From Defluviitaleaceae bacterium (GTDB lineage: Bacteria > Bacillota > Clostridia > Lachnospirales > WQUN01), in contig WRAH01000007.1 of assembly GCA_009780315.1 (NCBI GenBank), forward strand, positions 1 through 64,000: DNA of 64,000 nt, read 5' to 3'. Under the pieces are notes generated by a model. The model searched no databases and had not been told where the DNA came from. It saw only the letters and a list, made by a program, of their open reading frames with translations. The position numbers were made by a program, and so were the translations under genes. This document shows, one piece after another, positions 24,293 through 31,687 of this stretch. Numbering within the stretch: position 1 is the first letter of the stretch; the number at the start of each line of letters is the position of its first letter.

Positions 24293-24652
24293 CTAAATTG
24301 CATTGTGTGTGAAGCTTGCGATTCTGTCTACTGGAATAACGGTTACAGAGCCTAGCCAGTTTCCGTATCCATAGCCAAATCCATAGCCACGTCTGCCATA
24401 GCCGCAACCGCAGCCGTCACCGCAACCACCATAATTGCGTCTGCCTTCAAATTCAGGGTATCCGCCGCAACATGCGCTGCCTATTGGACAAGCTGGGGGT
24501 GCGCCAATGTCTGTGATAAGTTTGACATTGCCGTCACAAATGGCTGCAAGAACGCCTGTAAAGCCATTGCCTGAAAGCCCGCCGCTTGTGGTAAAGATTG
24601 TAACAGTTTGGCCGATATAACGTGCCATGCTTTCTACTAAAAATCCTCCCAT
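24293..24652 (-). CDS. Small Gly/Cys/Tyr-rich protein of unknown function
   Basis: A 119-residue protein with two parts. The N-terminal two thirds (MARYIGQTVTIFTTSGG through VKLITDIG) look like a small beta-barrel that is resumed at the end (VTVIPVDRIASFTHNAI). An insert at residues 52-97 is extremely rich in Gly, Cys and Tyr (CGDGCGCGYG, then GYGFGYGYG). The insert resembles structural proteins of spore coats or exosporia, but I do not recognise the family. AAGGAGG lies 7 bp before the ATG. It has its own terminator and a hairpin over its ribosome site. Confidence 0.7.
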   Translation of the reverse strand: MGGFLVESMARYIGQTVTIFTTSGGLSGNGFTGVLAAICDGNVKLITDIGAPPACPIGSACCGGYPEFEGRRNYGGCGDGCGCGYGRRGYGFGYGYGNWLGSVTVIPVDRIASFTHNAI

Positions 24653-26389: not shown

Positions 26390-28219
26390 TTAGTAAGACA
26401 AAGCGTAAATCAAATTGTGTACAAGTAAACCAAAAAACCAAGATTCGAGAGTAAAATTATCTCGATAATTTTCATATTCAACGAGGTCATGAATATATGG
26501 ATTGGCAAAGAAATATCCTCCGTTGTAGCCTCTGTAAGTACTTAAAGATATCATTGCATCTTCTACACTTAACTCAATATCCAGATTAAACATTTCCGCT
26601 AAACGAAGCATTCGGAATGTTGATAAAATATTGACCCCATCTGGGCTATGCGTAACCAACGAAAATACACCTTCACTTACATGATACTCATTGAGGATTT
26701 TTTGCATCCAAGCGAGTTCCAGCTCTAAATTCAGCATATCTCTAAGCATAACATTGTAAAAAAAGTGTTCGTCTGTCAAATGAGCGTCATCTAGGTTACT
26801 AACAGCGTATACTATCCTTTCATAATCGCTTTCAAGAAGAGGTGTATCCATCAAAATTAGAACGTTAAGCAAGCGATAAATTGCTATTGAGTCAAGACTA
26901 TGAACTTGTGTTAAATTTTCGTCAATTAGCCTTGATATTTCATATTTATGTTCGTCTCCTATCGGAGAATGTAATTCATTACTAATTAACAGAAAAAAAT
27001 AAGCTTCACGAATGTTTCTTAATGTTGCTAATTTAATATGATTCATAAAAGTATATTCATCTATATTGAATCCTAAAGTTTTAGATATTAAAAGTCCGAA
27101 AAATTGTTCACCAATATCGGAAAAATTAGTGCGGAGCGAAATTAAATTTCCGAAGTTTCTTGCATTTGCTAAGTATCTTTCAATATAATACAAATTTTCA
27201 TCTTTTAACAAAGACAATCCGCTATATACAAATGAGTATGTGTAAAAAAATATTTCATTAAAGTCTGTCATTTTTAGCCGATTAACAAAATGACTATAAG
27301 CATGTTCATCAAAGTCTATAGAATAAAAATCATTTAAACATTGCATAAAGACTGTTACAATAGAGCTTAAAACAATTAAATCAATTTCATCTGAATATAA
27401 TAAACTAGACATTATATCGACTTGGTCTGAATACCATTCTTTATATTGGTTTAAATCTATATATTTATGTCCATCACTAATCCTGTTGAAAATAATACTT
27501 GAACTAAGTAACTCCAGCTCAGATAGGCTAAACTTTATTGAATTTGCTCCAAAGTAATCCTCACTATTCATCAGACTTACTAGCCTGTTATAAAAAAAGT
27601 CTTGAAGTTCATCAGAAAAATAACCTATTACATCCAATGTTCTAATCAATACTCTTATTTCAAAGGTGTCCATATATACACCCGTATATTCTTCAAGTTT
27701 AATCAGTTCATAGATTGTTGATATATAGAACGCTAGGTTAGATTCATTTTCTATCCAAAAATCAATCTTTGATAAAAAATAGATTTCCTCGTTTGAAAAT
27801 CTTAATTGTAATACTCCATCATCTTCTATTTCGTTAATGCGATTGGATATAAATATCTCTATACGTGGTATAAGCTCTTCATCAATTTCTTCTTGAAGGA
27901 TGTTTTGTGTGAATTTGATGTAGTAATACAACATGGGTAAACTAAAGTTGGTACTAAGCCTATTGTATTTATTACTTGCCATAAAATAGCTAAACTCAGG
28001 ATCAGTTACATACAAGACATTGATAAGCGAGAGGTCTTTATCAAAATCAAAAAAATGGTCAATATCTTTATTAAATACTTCGATGCTCTCAATAGCTTCA
28101 ACGCTCTTAATGTCGAAATTGTATATATTCGTATTATTAAAATTTATTATTAAAACAACTGCCACAATTATAAGCACAACCGACAATGCGATAATTAGTT
28201 TCTTTTTGTTTTTGAACAT
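26390..28219 (-). CDS. Membrane-anchored helical protein of unknown family
   Basis: A 609-residue protein, AT-rich compared with its neighbours. A short basic N-terminus and one membrane helix (residues about 7-26) are followed by about 580 mostly helical residues outside the membrane, rich in Ile, Asp, Glu and Tyr and with no Cys-rich or catalytic motif I can identify. The last 50 residues (GYNGGYFFANP, then FTLESWFFGL) faintly recall the GGF...S-x-E-S-T/W-F repeats of alpha/alpha-toroid proteins such as prenyltransferases. The start at 28219 follows GAAGGA by 8 bp. It lies downstream of the secreted protein gene, separated by a strong hairpin; the two are probably co-transcribed. Function unknown. 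Confidence 0.7.
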   Translation of the reverse strand: MFKNKKKLIIALSVVLIIVAVVLIINFNNTNIYNFDIKSVEAIESIEVFNKDIDHFFDFDKDLSLINVLYVTDPEFSYFMASNKYNRLSTNFSLPMLYYYIKFTQNILQEEIDEELIPRIEIFISNRINEIEDDGVLQLRFSNEEIYFLSKIDFWIENESNLAFYISTIYELIKLEEYTGVYMDTFEIRVLIRTLDVIGYFSDELQDFFYNRLVSLMNSEDYFGANSIKFSLSELELLSSSIIFNRISDGHKYIDLNQYKEWYSDQVDIMSSLLYSDEIDLIVLSSIVTVFMQCLNDFYSIDFDEHAYSHFVNRLKMTDFNEIFFYTYSFVYSGLSLLKDENLYYIERYLANARNFGNLISLRTNFSDIGEQFFGLLISKTLGFNIDEYTFMNHIKLATLRNIREAYFFLLISNELHSPIGDEHKYEISRLIDENLTQVHSLDSIAIYRLLNVLILMDTPLLESDYERIVYAVSNLDDAHLTDEHFFYNVMLRDMLNLELELAWMQKILNEYHVSEGVFSLVTHSPDGVNILSTFRMLRLAEMFNLDIELSVEDAMISLSTYRGYNGGYFFANPYIHDLVEYENYRDNFTLESWFFGLLVHNLIYALSY

Positions 28220-28244
28220 ATTACTCATCCTTCTTTCTTCTAAG

Positions 28245-28288: not shown

Positions 28289-29020
28289 TTATAATCCGAA
28301 GTTTACAGAGTCATTGGTATTTACAAAGTGATTCCGCCCCGCAGTGCGGAATACACCCTCTGTTCTTTTATTAACGCTGAATAGACCGACGTTAGAGGTT
28401 GCTTGAAGATTGCTGTAGAAATTCTGAATTATCCACGCATTATTCTCTCCGCTTCTCATTTCAACAGTTCGAGCAGTCCCAGAACCAGAAACACTTCCAC
28501 CACCATTTCCTATGCTTGCAGAAACTGCCATTCCGTTAAAGGTTACAAAGTCATTAAGCTCTAGTCTATCCATAGTCCATGGATTGAAGCCTGTCCACAT
28601 TGCACGTGACCAGCCATCATAAAAAATTGTCACTGTTGTAAATCCTCTATCACGGCTAGAAGTGTCACTGAATACCACCTCAAATGCTCCATCACCAAAA
28701 TTTTGCGTTCTGGAATCATGCAACCAGCGCGCAGACCTAGGTGCTATTCCATTAGCCCCAGTAAGTTCACTTGTTAAAGTATCAAGTGCTCTGATGACAT
28801 CAGCCCTATCAACATCAGGATTGTTTACTGGTGAAACTGTCCTAAAAGTAAATTGGTCGTTTTGACCGCTTCGGGATAGATTTGGTTCACCTGTGATTTC
28901 AAACACTATGCCGTTTACATCAATTATGCGCCCATTAGAAGCCGCATTGGCATGTAATGGGGTTATTGCGGTAAACAACATTACCATAGAAATCATTAAG
29001 CCAATTACACTTTTCTTCAT
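28289..29020 (-). CDS. Secreted protein of unknown family
   Basis: A 243-residue exported protein with a clear signal peptide (MKKSVIGLMISMVMLFTAIT, cleavage likely after HANA). The mature part is beta-rich and polar (NGRIIDVNGIVFEITGE near the start, VTIFYDGWSRAMWTGFNPW in the middle, a Gly/Ser segment GNGGGSVSGSGTA) and has no Cys and no sortase or membrane anchor, so it should be released. A good AGAGAGGGAAG site lies before the ATG. The family is not recognised. The leader of about 120 nt and flanking inverted repeats suggest tight regulation, possibly by the regulator encoded at 29461-31383. Confidence 0.75.
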   Translation of the reverse strand: MKKSVIGLMISMVMLFTAITPLHANAASNGRIIDVNGIVFEITGEPNLSRSGQNDQFTFRTVSPVNNPDVDRADVIRALDTLTSELTGANGIAPRSARWLHDSRTQNFGDGAFEVVFSDTSSRDRGFTTVTIFYDGWSRAMWTGFNPWTMDRLELNDFVTFNGMAVSASIGNGGGSVSGSGTARTVEMRSGENNAWIIQNFYSNLQATSNVGLFSVNKRTEGVFRTAGRNHFVNTNDSVNFGL

Positions 29021-29171: not shown

Positions 29172-29217
29172 AAAATATCCAACTGCCCGACATATTTGTT
29201 GAGCCGTTGGATATTTT
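29172..29217 (-). terminator. 12-bp inverted repeat; probable terminator of the HTH-TPR regulator
   Basis: Arms AAAATATCCAAC (29172-29183) and GTTGGATATTTT (29206-29217) are perfectly complementary with a 22-nt loop. On the minus strand the stem runs into further T (TTTTTTA), so it can end the regulator transcript after it has crossed the peptide gene. It also abuts the peptide gene promoter and could be an operator. Confidence 0.5.
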
Positions 29218-29245: not shown

Positions 29246-29281
29246 ATTACACAATTTACCAAATTTATGGAGGTGTTTTGA

Positions 29282-29452
29282 ATGTTTAAAAAGTTGTTGG
29301 CGGGCTTGGCCTGCGCGGGGATGGTTTGTTTAATGGCAATATCTGTGGTGATTGCACAGCCACATATTGAGCTATATTGCTATGAGTACAGCGACGATGT
29401 TGTAGAGAGTAACCCATTCATAATCGGCAGTAACAAAACCACCGAAGATTAG
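29282..29452 (+). CDS. Small secreted peptide, candidate Phr-like signal
   Basis: A 56-codon gene below usual length cut-offs. GGAGGT lies 8 bp before the ATG. The product begins MFKKLLAGLACAGMVCLMAI, an ideal export signal, with a likely cleavage site after VVIA, and leaves about 31 polar residues (QPHIELYCYEYSDD ... FIIGSNKTTED). Its stop is 8 bp from the stop of the convergent HTH plus helical-repeat gene. Small exported propeptides next to such regulators are the hallmark of RRNPP quorum-sensing pairs (Rap-Phr, PlcR-PapR, Rgg-SHP). The link is inferred; the peptide family is not recognised. Confidence 0.65.
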   Translation: MFKKLLAGLACAGMVCLMAISVVIAQPHIELYCYEYSDDVVESNPFIIGSNKTTED

Positions 29453-29460
29453 TTGTGTGA

Positions 29461-31383
29461 CTATCTAAAGTCTATACTATGGCGCTTCTTTACGTGAAGC
29501 CTGACAATATCTTGGTCTAAAGTATTATCAACTAGACCTAGAGCATGAAAGGCTTGTGCGAAAATGGAAACGCCTTTTTTCTTATCTCCGGACTCAAGTT
29601 CAACATACGCCCTATTTATGGCAAAACTAGCCGACATATTTAAATTACCATGCTTTATACACATTTCGCTGCCTTCTATAGAAAGTTGGAGCGCGTCATC
29701 CAATGCACCCATTAGCCCAATATGCTTTGACAAATTGTACTTCAACGTTGGCATGGTACGCACCAGTGCCATTTCATCTACATAATGGCGATTTATGCTA
29801 GTGTGCAAGTTTTCAAGCAATCTAACACCTCTTCGCCGCTGACCTGTTTCGCATAAATTAATCCCTATTTGATTTAGGGTTGAAATCTCGCTGTATGTCA
29901 GCCGCAATGTGGAAACGTGATCTTCGTCATACTTTCTGCCTGTGGCGTACCATGCATCCTTTAACATTTCCATGTGCTTGGTATCATATTTTTTCTCCCT
30001 GCAATAAATTTGTGCATCCAAATATTTAATGTATTGCAAACCTATACCCTTTTGCATAAAAAAGGGTATTTTCGACAATTCGCTATGCAATGGCTTAACT
30101 TTTGCATAGCATCCTTGTGCAATCAGTGCGTTAACATTGTTGCGCAATTTGTGTATCTGTCCGTCTTTAAAGGAGTAGAATACAGTGAAATATTTTTCGC
30201 CGCATCGTCCGTAGCGGTCAAAAAGTCCTTCGTAGATGAATATGCTAGTTGGTTTCGATTTGTTTTCCAAGTCGTTTAATGTAGATTTGTCGCATATACC
30301 TTCACATACAGCTCTAAGTGATATATTGACTCCGTCGCAAAGACTGGCTTCTTTACGAAAGCCATAAAATAGCCCTCCCATGTCTGTACAAGGTATCGTG
30401 GTTCCATATTTTATAGATAGGTCGGGTACATCAGTGGCTAGATTTTCTATGTCATAGGTTTCAAAACTGATGCCCTTTTGGCTGGCAAATTCTTTTACTT
30501 CAATTGCCATACCCTGCTTCCGCATTAGTGAATAACTTGCATATGCGGGTAAGAGCAAGTTTGCACACTCTTTTTTGTCATAAGAATACACGGTCTTGGC
30601 TTTAATAAATGTAAAATCGGGTGTGTATTTGCCTCGGTTGCGTCTGTTGGATACTATTCTGCCTTCATCGCACATTTTTATTGCTTTATCATATTCACCG
30701 GCATCCAAATACATTTGTGCTAGTCCTAAAAGTACAGGAGCGAAAAGTCTTTCCTTGCTGCGGCTGTCTTGAGGCAGAGCAATAAGCCCTGCTAGCATTT
30801 GCTCAAGCAAGCTAACACCTTTTTGCAAATCACCACTTCTGTGATACACAAGTGCTAGTAACAATATCAACTCCGACTCAGGTAAAAATAGCATATCACC
30901 TCTCAAATTGTCAGGTTTAAATTCTGGATATGTGATAGAAATAGCATCTTTTATCATGTCTACGATTTCGTTTGTTTGCCGCCCTTGAAGTTCATGCAGT
31001 TTTGCAGTGCAGTATAAAATAAATTGGAGATTTATGCCATTGTCGAATCCATCCATTCCTTTTAGTTTAGTAATTAAGGTCTCTGTACTTATTAGCAGAT
31101 GAGGATAATGCCTTGCCCATTCCAATTCAAAAAGAAGCTGATTTCTTATCTCAAATACAAATGTATTTTGCACATTTAAATAAGAGTAAAAACATGTATC
31201 TATAGGCAAGCCTAGTGAGTTCATATAATTATTAAAATCCTTTTCTCTGGGGCTTCGCAATTTTTTATCATAACGAAAAAGGTTAAAATTATCAATCGAA
31301 CTAAATTTTGAAAAATAGGCTTGTGTCCATCCCTTTCTCTTCCGCATCAAGCCAAGCGAGTCTTCCCTTATTATTCCAAACAT
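29461..31383 (-). CDS. HTH (XRE-like) regulator with long TPR-like helical domain, RRNPP-like
   Basis: A 640-residue cytoplasmic protein. Residues about 6-60 form an XRE-type helix-turn-helix (LGLMRKRKGWTQAYFSKF, then LFRYDKKLRSP). The rest is a long array of helices with TPR-like spacing, e.g. LLALVYHRSGDLQKGVSLLE, GLAQMYLDAGEYDKAIKMC, IGINLCETGQRRRGVRLLE and INRAYVELESGDKKKGVSIF. This is the plan of RRNPP-family peptide receptors, though longer than classical ones (about 300-380 residues). GGAGG lies 6 bp before the ATG at 31383. It converges on the small secreted peptide gene and probably shares overlapping 3' transcripts with it. Confidence 0.8.
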   Translation of the reverse strand: MFGIIREDSLGLMRKRKGWTQAYFSKFSSIDNFNLFRYDKKLRSPREKDFNNYMNSLGLPIDTCFYSYLNVQNTFVFEIRNQLLFELEWARHYPHLLISTETLITKLKGMDGFDNGINLQFILYCTAKLHELQGRQTNEIVDMIKDAISITYPEFKPDNLRGDMLFLPESELILLLALVYHRSGDLQKGVSLLEQMLAGLIALPQDSRSKERLFAPVLLGLAQMYLDAGEYDKAIKMCDEGRIVSNRRNRGKYTPDFTFIKAKTVYSYDKKECANLLLPAYASYSLMRKQGMAIEVKEFASQKGISFETYDIENLATDVPDLSIKYGTTIPCTDMGGLFYGFRKEASLCDGVNISLRAVCEGICDKSTLNDLENKSKPTSIFIYEGLFDRYGRCGEKYFTVFYSFKDGQIHKLRNNVNALIAQGCYAKVKPLHSELSKIPFFMQKGIGLQYIKYLDAQIYCREKKYDTKHMEMLKDAWYATGRKYDEDHVSTLRLTYSEISTLNQIGINLCETGQRRRGVRLLENLHTSINRHYVDEMALVRTMPTLKYNLSKHIGLMGALDDALQLSIEGSEMCIKHGNLNMSASFAINRAYVELESGDKKKGVSIFAQAFHALGLVDNTLDQDIVRLHVKKRHSIDFR

Positions 31384-31687
31384 GTTTGCCTCCATTCCCC
31401 ACACATGATAAACTTTTATATCATAATTTGTATAATCTTAAAAAGTTTACATAAATGTTGTTTTTATACTTAACTCTTTTTTCCCATTTTTTAGCTCCTT
31501 TGTCCTTCAAAGCTATTTTACCATGCTTGACATAGTTTTAGAAAGTAGCTATATCTCGCAAAGTGCCGAACACATTTGTATGGTTAGATTCAAGAAAACA
31601 CTGAGAACATGCTTGTAATATACTATTGAGTAATGCAAACACAAAAAAAGCTGATTGAAATACATCAGCTTTTTTTGAATAGGAAAA
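31384..31687. other. Intergenic region upstream of the RRNPP-like regulator
   Basis: About 300 bp, very AT-rich. It holds the regulator's leader and, on the plus strand, a promoter-like pair TTGACA (31527-31532) and TATATC (31550-31555) with a 17-bp spacer that points towards the terminator at 31643-31677. A transcript of about 115 nt could result; its only ORF is 12 codons and lacks a ribosome site. No other feature is seen. Confidence 0.35.
31643..31677. terminator. Bidirectional intrinsic terminator after the M50 protease gene
   Basis: A 13-bp stem (AAAAAAAGCTGAT at 31643-31655 with ATCAGCTTTTTTT at 31664-31676) gives T runs on both strands. It ends the tagA-yitT-M50 operon on the minus strand. 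Confidence 0.85.

Follow-up and report, generated by a model that had tools for sequence, protein, structure and literature searches.

The predicted exported peptide of 56 residues and the convergent regulator of 640 residues encoded at positions 29282 to 31383 of the window (the whole 64,000-nucleotide stretch analysed) probably form an RRNPP-type peptide quorum-sensing system, closest to PlcR-PapR, in which the receptor is a covalent double unit; we put the probability of this reading at roughly 85%. RRNPP receptors, all of which except Rap carry an N-terminal XRE-type helix-turn-helix (HTH), mostly act as assemblies of two or more identical subunits, and the role of each subunit's peptide site is therefore hard to ask. 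A natural single-chain receptor that has kept one site and lost the other would separate the two subunit roles. The case is built on the computed recurrence of the pair, RRNPP homology, tandem fusion and unit asymmetry in the receptor, a motif in the nearest peptides and the recurrence of an upstream palindrome.

The putative pheromone precursor is encoded on the forward strand at 29282-29452 (MFKKLLAGLACAGMVCLMAISVVIAQPHIELYCYEYSDDVVESNPFIIGSNKTTED), and its ribosome-binding site, GGAGGT, lies at 29269-29274, 7 bases before the ATG; at this site ATTTATGGAGGTG is kept in a same-genus genome, G001. The product has a basic N-terminus and a hydrophobic core up to VIA, followed by a polar tail. 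Residues 1-25 (29282-29356) are predicted to be a Sec signal peptide, called from hydropathy (core 3.0-3.1), with cleavage after VIA judged by eye. The first-pass annotation had listed the ribosome-binding site, signal peptide and polar tail, and all are present on re-reading; its 8-bp distance between the stop codons of the two genes also agrees with the coordinates. G001 encodes an orthologous peptide, 45% identical to that of the window (E 3.6e-6), and an orthologous regulator (50% identity) separated from it by an identical 8-bp gap. Identity between the two peptide genes at the three codon positions is 0.63/0.65/0.44 over 52 codons, and a third position that is the most diverged is what would be expected of constrained coding sequence, 52 codons being a small sample.

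The regulator gene occupies 29461-31383 on the reverse strand. An ATG at 31383, preceded by GGAGG, gives the 640 residues originally proposed; an alternative GTG at 31404 gives 647. Two profile comparisons point to PlcR. One, built from 20 single-unit relatives, matches it over nearly its full length with an E value of 1.9e-22, Rgg, ComR and PrgX ranking behind, and PlcR is the top profile match of the C-terminal half of the long-family profile (E 2.3e-15). Comparison of a predicted structure with RRNPP proteins, proposed as a check at the outset, gave the same answer. In an AlphaFold2 model of the window regulator (19 sequences; pLDDT 89, pTM 0.89), PlcR is Foldseek rank 1 and the top VIA match, with Z 17.5 and an rmsd of 2.6 Å over 215 residues at about 13% identity. 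Only PlcR stands out, since the lower fold matches include unrelated TPR proteins at Z 13-14. The single-unit model matches PlcR with Z 21.5, with an rmsd that is high for two full-length matches and 2.8 Å for a match of the TPR domain only.

Domain models give a compatible picture. Among the relatives, Pfam RNPP_C is present in 12 of the 19 long ones and in 12 of the 20 with a single unit; Pfam did not find it in the window regulator alone at 0.01. A TPR at residues 218-242 of the window protein exceeds the Pfam cut-off. The XRE-like HTH of the first-pass annotation falls below the Pfam threshold in the window protein, whose second HTH has a six-residue insertion; the orthologue's HTH passes, scoring 30.1 bits with HTH_31 (cut-off 27), and the long-family profile matches HTH domains of solved structure. 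Profile and model evidence together indicate that the TPR domain of the receptor is homologous to those of known RRNPP members. The RRNPP reading made from the letters alone thus gains support from the PlcR profile and fold matches, from RNPP_C in relatives, from convergent exported peptides and from oligopeptide-binding proteins, of which the same genome encodes 7 (SBP_bac_5).

On profile and half-to-half alignment, the receptor is two complete PlcR-like HTH-TPR units fused in tandem, and this accounts for its unusual length. The N-terminal unit (HTH1 and TPR) covers approximately residues 1-330 (30394-31383, reverse strand) and the C-terminal unit (HTH2 and TPR) approximately residues 336-640 (29464-30378, reverse strand). 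Aligned with each other, the N- and C-terminal halves of the long family give an hhalign E value of 6e-39 over 286 columns; against the single-unit family they give 3e-50 and 1e-65, and the single-unit profile matches both halves in 27 of 27 long receptors. The many TPR-like helix pairs noticed earlier are there, arranged as two separate TPR domains with an HTH region before each. The earlier assignment to a divergent subgroup likewise stands, while the tandem fusion behind the receptor's length had been missed.

In a tree of 105 units, 25 N-terminal halves fall together with support 94, rising to 99 for 24 of them, and 25 C-terminal halves form a clade of their own (support 98), one receptor truncated at a contig end being included. 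This separation points to one main fusion, from which most of the long receptors stem. L124, a receptor from another family (G374), is a separate fusion, whose halves fall beside a pair of neighbouring unfused genes of G355 (L128). The L128 genes (contig 79, 1495-3368) are likely the unfused counterpart of L124 (contig 2, 1480-3297), which would give a before-and-after picture of a fusion.

Upstream of the peptide gene, ending 64 bp before its start codon, is a 46-bp palindrome (29172-29217), a candidate operator of the receptor that would be common to the peptide gene and the divergent gene. G001 has a palindrome of equal length at the matching place (L085, 307-352); between the two, 15 pairs are unchanged, 2 are changed on both sides and 6 are broken in one or both. 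Related palindromes are found with related receptors, namely those of contigs 10 and 15 and of G098. Palindrome scores of at least 12 were obtained at 18 of the 34 peptide genes recovered in the survey described below and at 12 of 129 intergenic control regions (p 1e-7), at least 4 of those 12 being the same palindromes viewed from the divergent gene. The intergenic control replaced a first set of upstream regions, often within operons, which at 2.3% was judged too lenient. Many of the palindromes at peptide genes are 50-67 bp long, and their sequences differ. At L019 (G023 contig 58, 3399-3700) a palindrome directly follows a fused receptor and is itself followed by a lipoprotein-like ORF. 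A promoter scan was uninformative (9 found, 10.2 expected). The idea that the palindrome is a repeat element was rejected when no second copy was found in its own genome. Nothing in the window reached an Rfam gathering score, and a sub-threshold match over the palindrome (SQ2397, E 0.066) was judged to be chance.

The palindrome could instead be a leader-RNA hairpin or a terminator of the peptide transcript and no operator at all, a possibility that we regard as doubtful but worth serious attention: it folds well as RNA (z -3.0), and the location of most copies, 48-76 bp upstream of start codons, would suit a leader. Yet the palindrome lies between two divergent 5′ ends and most copies have no T tract. 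Moreover, it remains beside the regulator in G023, where no peptide gene was found next to the fused receptor, and one matching arm is present at a related locus in G030. An operator is more in keeping with these observations, and long palindromes of this kind may offer a simple genomic handle on target genes.

The two units of the receptor differ at positions that bear on ligand binding. We took N159 and N201 of PlcR to be the relevant residues, a choice made from alignment and general knowledge of TPRs. At the positions aligned with them, the C-terminal units of 12 and 15 of 19 long receptors have Asn, and the window receptor keeps both (504 and 550, or 505 and 551 in a 641-residue translation). 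In the N-terminal units the N159-aligned position is His in 17 of 19, and the N201-aligned position is mostly T, D or S. From a reading of its sequence, the L124 fusion has the same Asn pattern as the main long family. A TPR asparagine that contacts the peptide backbone is common to RRNPP receptors; RapF N227A abolishes binding (PMC3601957), and the ComR counterpart is N208 (PMC5131891). The alignments therefore suggest that the C-terminal unit has the conserved asparagine of peptide-backbone binding and that other residues have taken its place in the N-terminal unit, from which we infer that the former binds peptide and the latter is its partner.

An RRNPP sensor in which the N-terminal unit reads a second ligand, so that the receptor integrates one peptide with a second or with some other molecule, would also fit two complete HTH-TPR units. 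The near-invariant His and an invariant N/Q pair (N119, Q121) show an N-terminal unit that is conserved and not decaying. We nonetheless consider a second ligand unlikely, since only one exported ORF is recognised per fused receptor in the cases seen, and the loss of Asn from the N-terminal unit is nearly universal and affects the residue type needed for backbone binding in RapF.

With a single peptide-reading unit, the system might work as follows; export, processing, import, peptide binding, DNA binding, the direction of regulation and the targets are all part of the proposal. The 56-residue precursor would be exported by Sec and its signal peptide removed, and proteases would cut the tail down to a short stretch around NPFII, which an oligopeptide permease could re-import. 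The peptide would then dock on the concave side of the C-terminal TPR unit, the one that has retained the anchoring Asn. The N-terminal unit, having lost them, would act as a dimer partner within the same chain and provide the second HTH. Binding would alter how the receptor sits on the palindrome that separates the peptide gene from the divergent gene for an exported protein, and peptide and target would thereby be switched together. For the clade as a whole, we lean by a small margin over even odds towards PlcR-like units fused as an asymmetric single-chain 'dimer', with one unit reading the peptide and the other, non-sensing, contributing its own HTH, an extended palindrome controlling peptide and divergent genes jointly, and the fusion having arisen independently at least one more time.

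The candidate signal core of the tail is VVESNPFIIG (residues 40-49; 29399-29428, forward strand), which aligns with VVTPFDIG, ITPFDIG, IAPFSIG and ITPFCIL of related peptides. The nearest peptides share PF(D/S/I)IG within a conserved segment, [VI]xPFxIG: the core is SNPFIIGSN in the window, VTPFDIGGN in G001, ITPFDIGET in G030, IAPFSIGDD in G001-C36 and ITPFCILDP in G028, and two paralogous peptides from the genome of the window have IETIPFDV and IESIPFDC. PapR7, the PlcR ligand, is ADLPFEF, and its Pro, Glu and Phe matter (PMC6568020). The resemblance to PapR is suggestive and rests on few residues, and the PF core is not universal across the wider family. It is also partial in position: PapR ends in PFEF, whereas the window tail continues for 10 residues past PF and several polar residues follow PF in related peptides. 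By eye, the alignments show no visible conservation of the receptor residues that bind the PapR glutamate. Of five patterns tried on the tails of the 34 peptides, P[FYLI][DESNC] was observed in 15 against 5.9 expected and PF in 8 against 3.1 (p 0.004); a generic P-aromatic/aliphatic motif across all tails was not significant (p 0.12). The conserved PapR-like segment favours the original suggestion that the C-terminal part of the peptide is the signal.

Recurrence of the pair was measured around 78 distinct homologous regulators (27 long, 51 single-unit), nearly all from the same family and order, and around 329 control genes from the same family and from the window. Strict criteria required a ribosome-binding site, a basic N-terminus, a hydrophobic core, a polar tail and a stop-to-stop gap between -60 and +130. 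A convergent exported mini-ORF of this kind stands beside 34 of the 78 regulators and 3 of the 329 controls; the 34 comprise 12 of the 27 long (Fisher p ~1e-12) and 22 of the 51 single-unit homologues (p ~1e-18). No such excess is seen for downstream ORFs on the same strand as the regulator (1/27 long, 1/51 single-unit, 2/329 controls). The pairing of peptide and regulator is thus not due to chance. Relaxed criteria were abandoned as a test because 47 of the 329 background genes passed them. The first-pass annotation had staked its proposal on neighbouring exported ORFs at homologues and on coding conservation, and in general both are found, although more than half of the regulators have no partner under the strict criteria (15/27 long, 29/51 single-unit). 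Among these are loci with odd starts (L018, L002, L071) and apparent true orphans such as L019. The genome itself carries about nine homologous regulators, and paralogues on contigs 10 and 15 each have a convergent exported ORF at a 6-bp gap.

A small hydrophobic ORF next to an HTH gene is an arrangement also known from some toxin modules, and the HTH parts of the relatives weakly match antitoxin HTH models. We nevertheless find it most improbable that the small ORF encodes an antagonist or a type I-like toxin/immunity peptide under a TPR repressor, with no intercellular signal, given peptides with cleavable-looking signals, variable polar tails and a PapR-like core, and partner proteins that are full-length PlcR homologues. 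It is scarcely credible that the convergent ORF is no more than intergenic sequence that happens to be open, even with so many homologues having no recognisable partner, in view of its rarity beside background genes and of an orthologous peptide whose codons have changed most at the third position.

When the window regulator alone was used as query against named genomes, no relative was found. An alignment of 19 rows was too diverse as a query; with one of five rows the nearest named relatives proved to be Defluviitaleaceae MAGs, which from isolate names and general knowledge are presumably of termite-gut origin. The family is mentioned in a paper on termite-gut MAGs (PMC7024585).

Among known systems, PlcR-PapR of the Bacillus cereus group is the closest, with an HTH and TPR receptor that is the best profile and fold match, an adjacent peptide gene, and an exported precursor (here predicted) with a P-F core near its C-terminus. 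PlcR, however, is a homodimer of one unit (HTH and five TPRs), unlike the two fused units of the window receptor, and the window peptide gene is convergent. Rgg/SHP and ComR/ComS of streptococci also combine a receptor of HTH-TPR type with a small peptide gene next to it, their receptors again having one unit; SHP peptides exit via PptAB, not Sec (PMC10075063, PMC7564271). PrgX and NprR share the HTH-TPR architecture, rank lower in profile or fold matches and differ in having one unit per chain and other TPR numbers. QssR/Qsr of Clostridium are RRNPP receptors with exported propeptides in Clostridia, and they fall within the detection range of 250-500 residues. That range is the limit set by RRNPP_detector, validated receptors having 285-473 residues (PMC10075063); the window receptor, at 640, lies outside what is a detection limit and not a mechanistic criterion. 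A limited search of the open literature found no fused form among QssR/Qsr and no report of a fused double RRNPP receptor. Fused double receptors are thus a form that would escape the published census tool through its size limit, and signalling systems of gut Clostridia are likely undercounted as a result, several of them adjoining radical-SAM peptide clusters.

Divergent from the peptide gene in the window is a gene for an exported protein of 243 residues (28289-29020, reverse strand), a candidate target. The next gene in the same direction (26390-28228, reverse strand) encodes a 612-residue protein with an N-terminal hydrophobic segment and is a possible co-target. Neither protein has a family match or a homologue among the loci compared. 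The pair and these divergent neighbours can be read as a cassette between polyphosphate-kinase-like and site-2-protease-like genes, and the cassette itself contains no radical-SAM gene.

Divergent neighbours at other loci include exported proteins and also radical-SAM peptide maturases or maturase-like genes, the latter on G000 contigs 10 and 29, on G001-C36, in G098 and near G011/G032, several with ABC transporters. The paralogous loci on G000 C10 and C29, G001 C36 and G098 C18 resemble Rgg/SHP at radical-SAM RiPP clusters in adjoining both maturases and transporters, and recall streptococcal Rgg/SHP control of RaS-RiPPs. At L167 (G000 contig 10, 3303-9531), L171 (G001 contig 36, 5630-11132) and L182 (G098 contig 18, 1261-9843) a PlcR-like receptor and an exported peptide are divergent from a radical-SAM/SPASM peptide maturase, after which come one or more ABC-transporter-like genes. 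The three maturases score below all NCBIfam equivalog cut-offs, and the loci are likely to be quorum-controlled peptide natural-product clusters. At L173 (G011 contig 17, 4551-11014) an S41-peptidase-like exported protein is present in two tandem copies beside a fused receptor. A maturase-like protein comes after each copy, and the first of these maturases is radical SAM by Pfam. A tandem pair of very small, similar ORFs that contain FVPFGGSGGPGC and ITPFGGSAGPGC lies upstream of a single-unit receptor at L003 (G000 contig 12, 219-326 and 435-536, reverse strand). Elsewhere in the window, 24293-24652 on the reverse strand encodes a 119-residue protein with a Gly/Tyr/Arg-rich C-terminal part that is possibly spore-coat-like.
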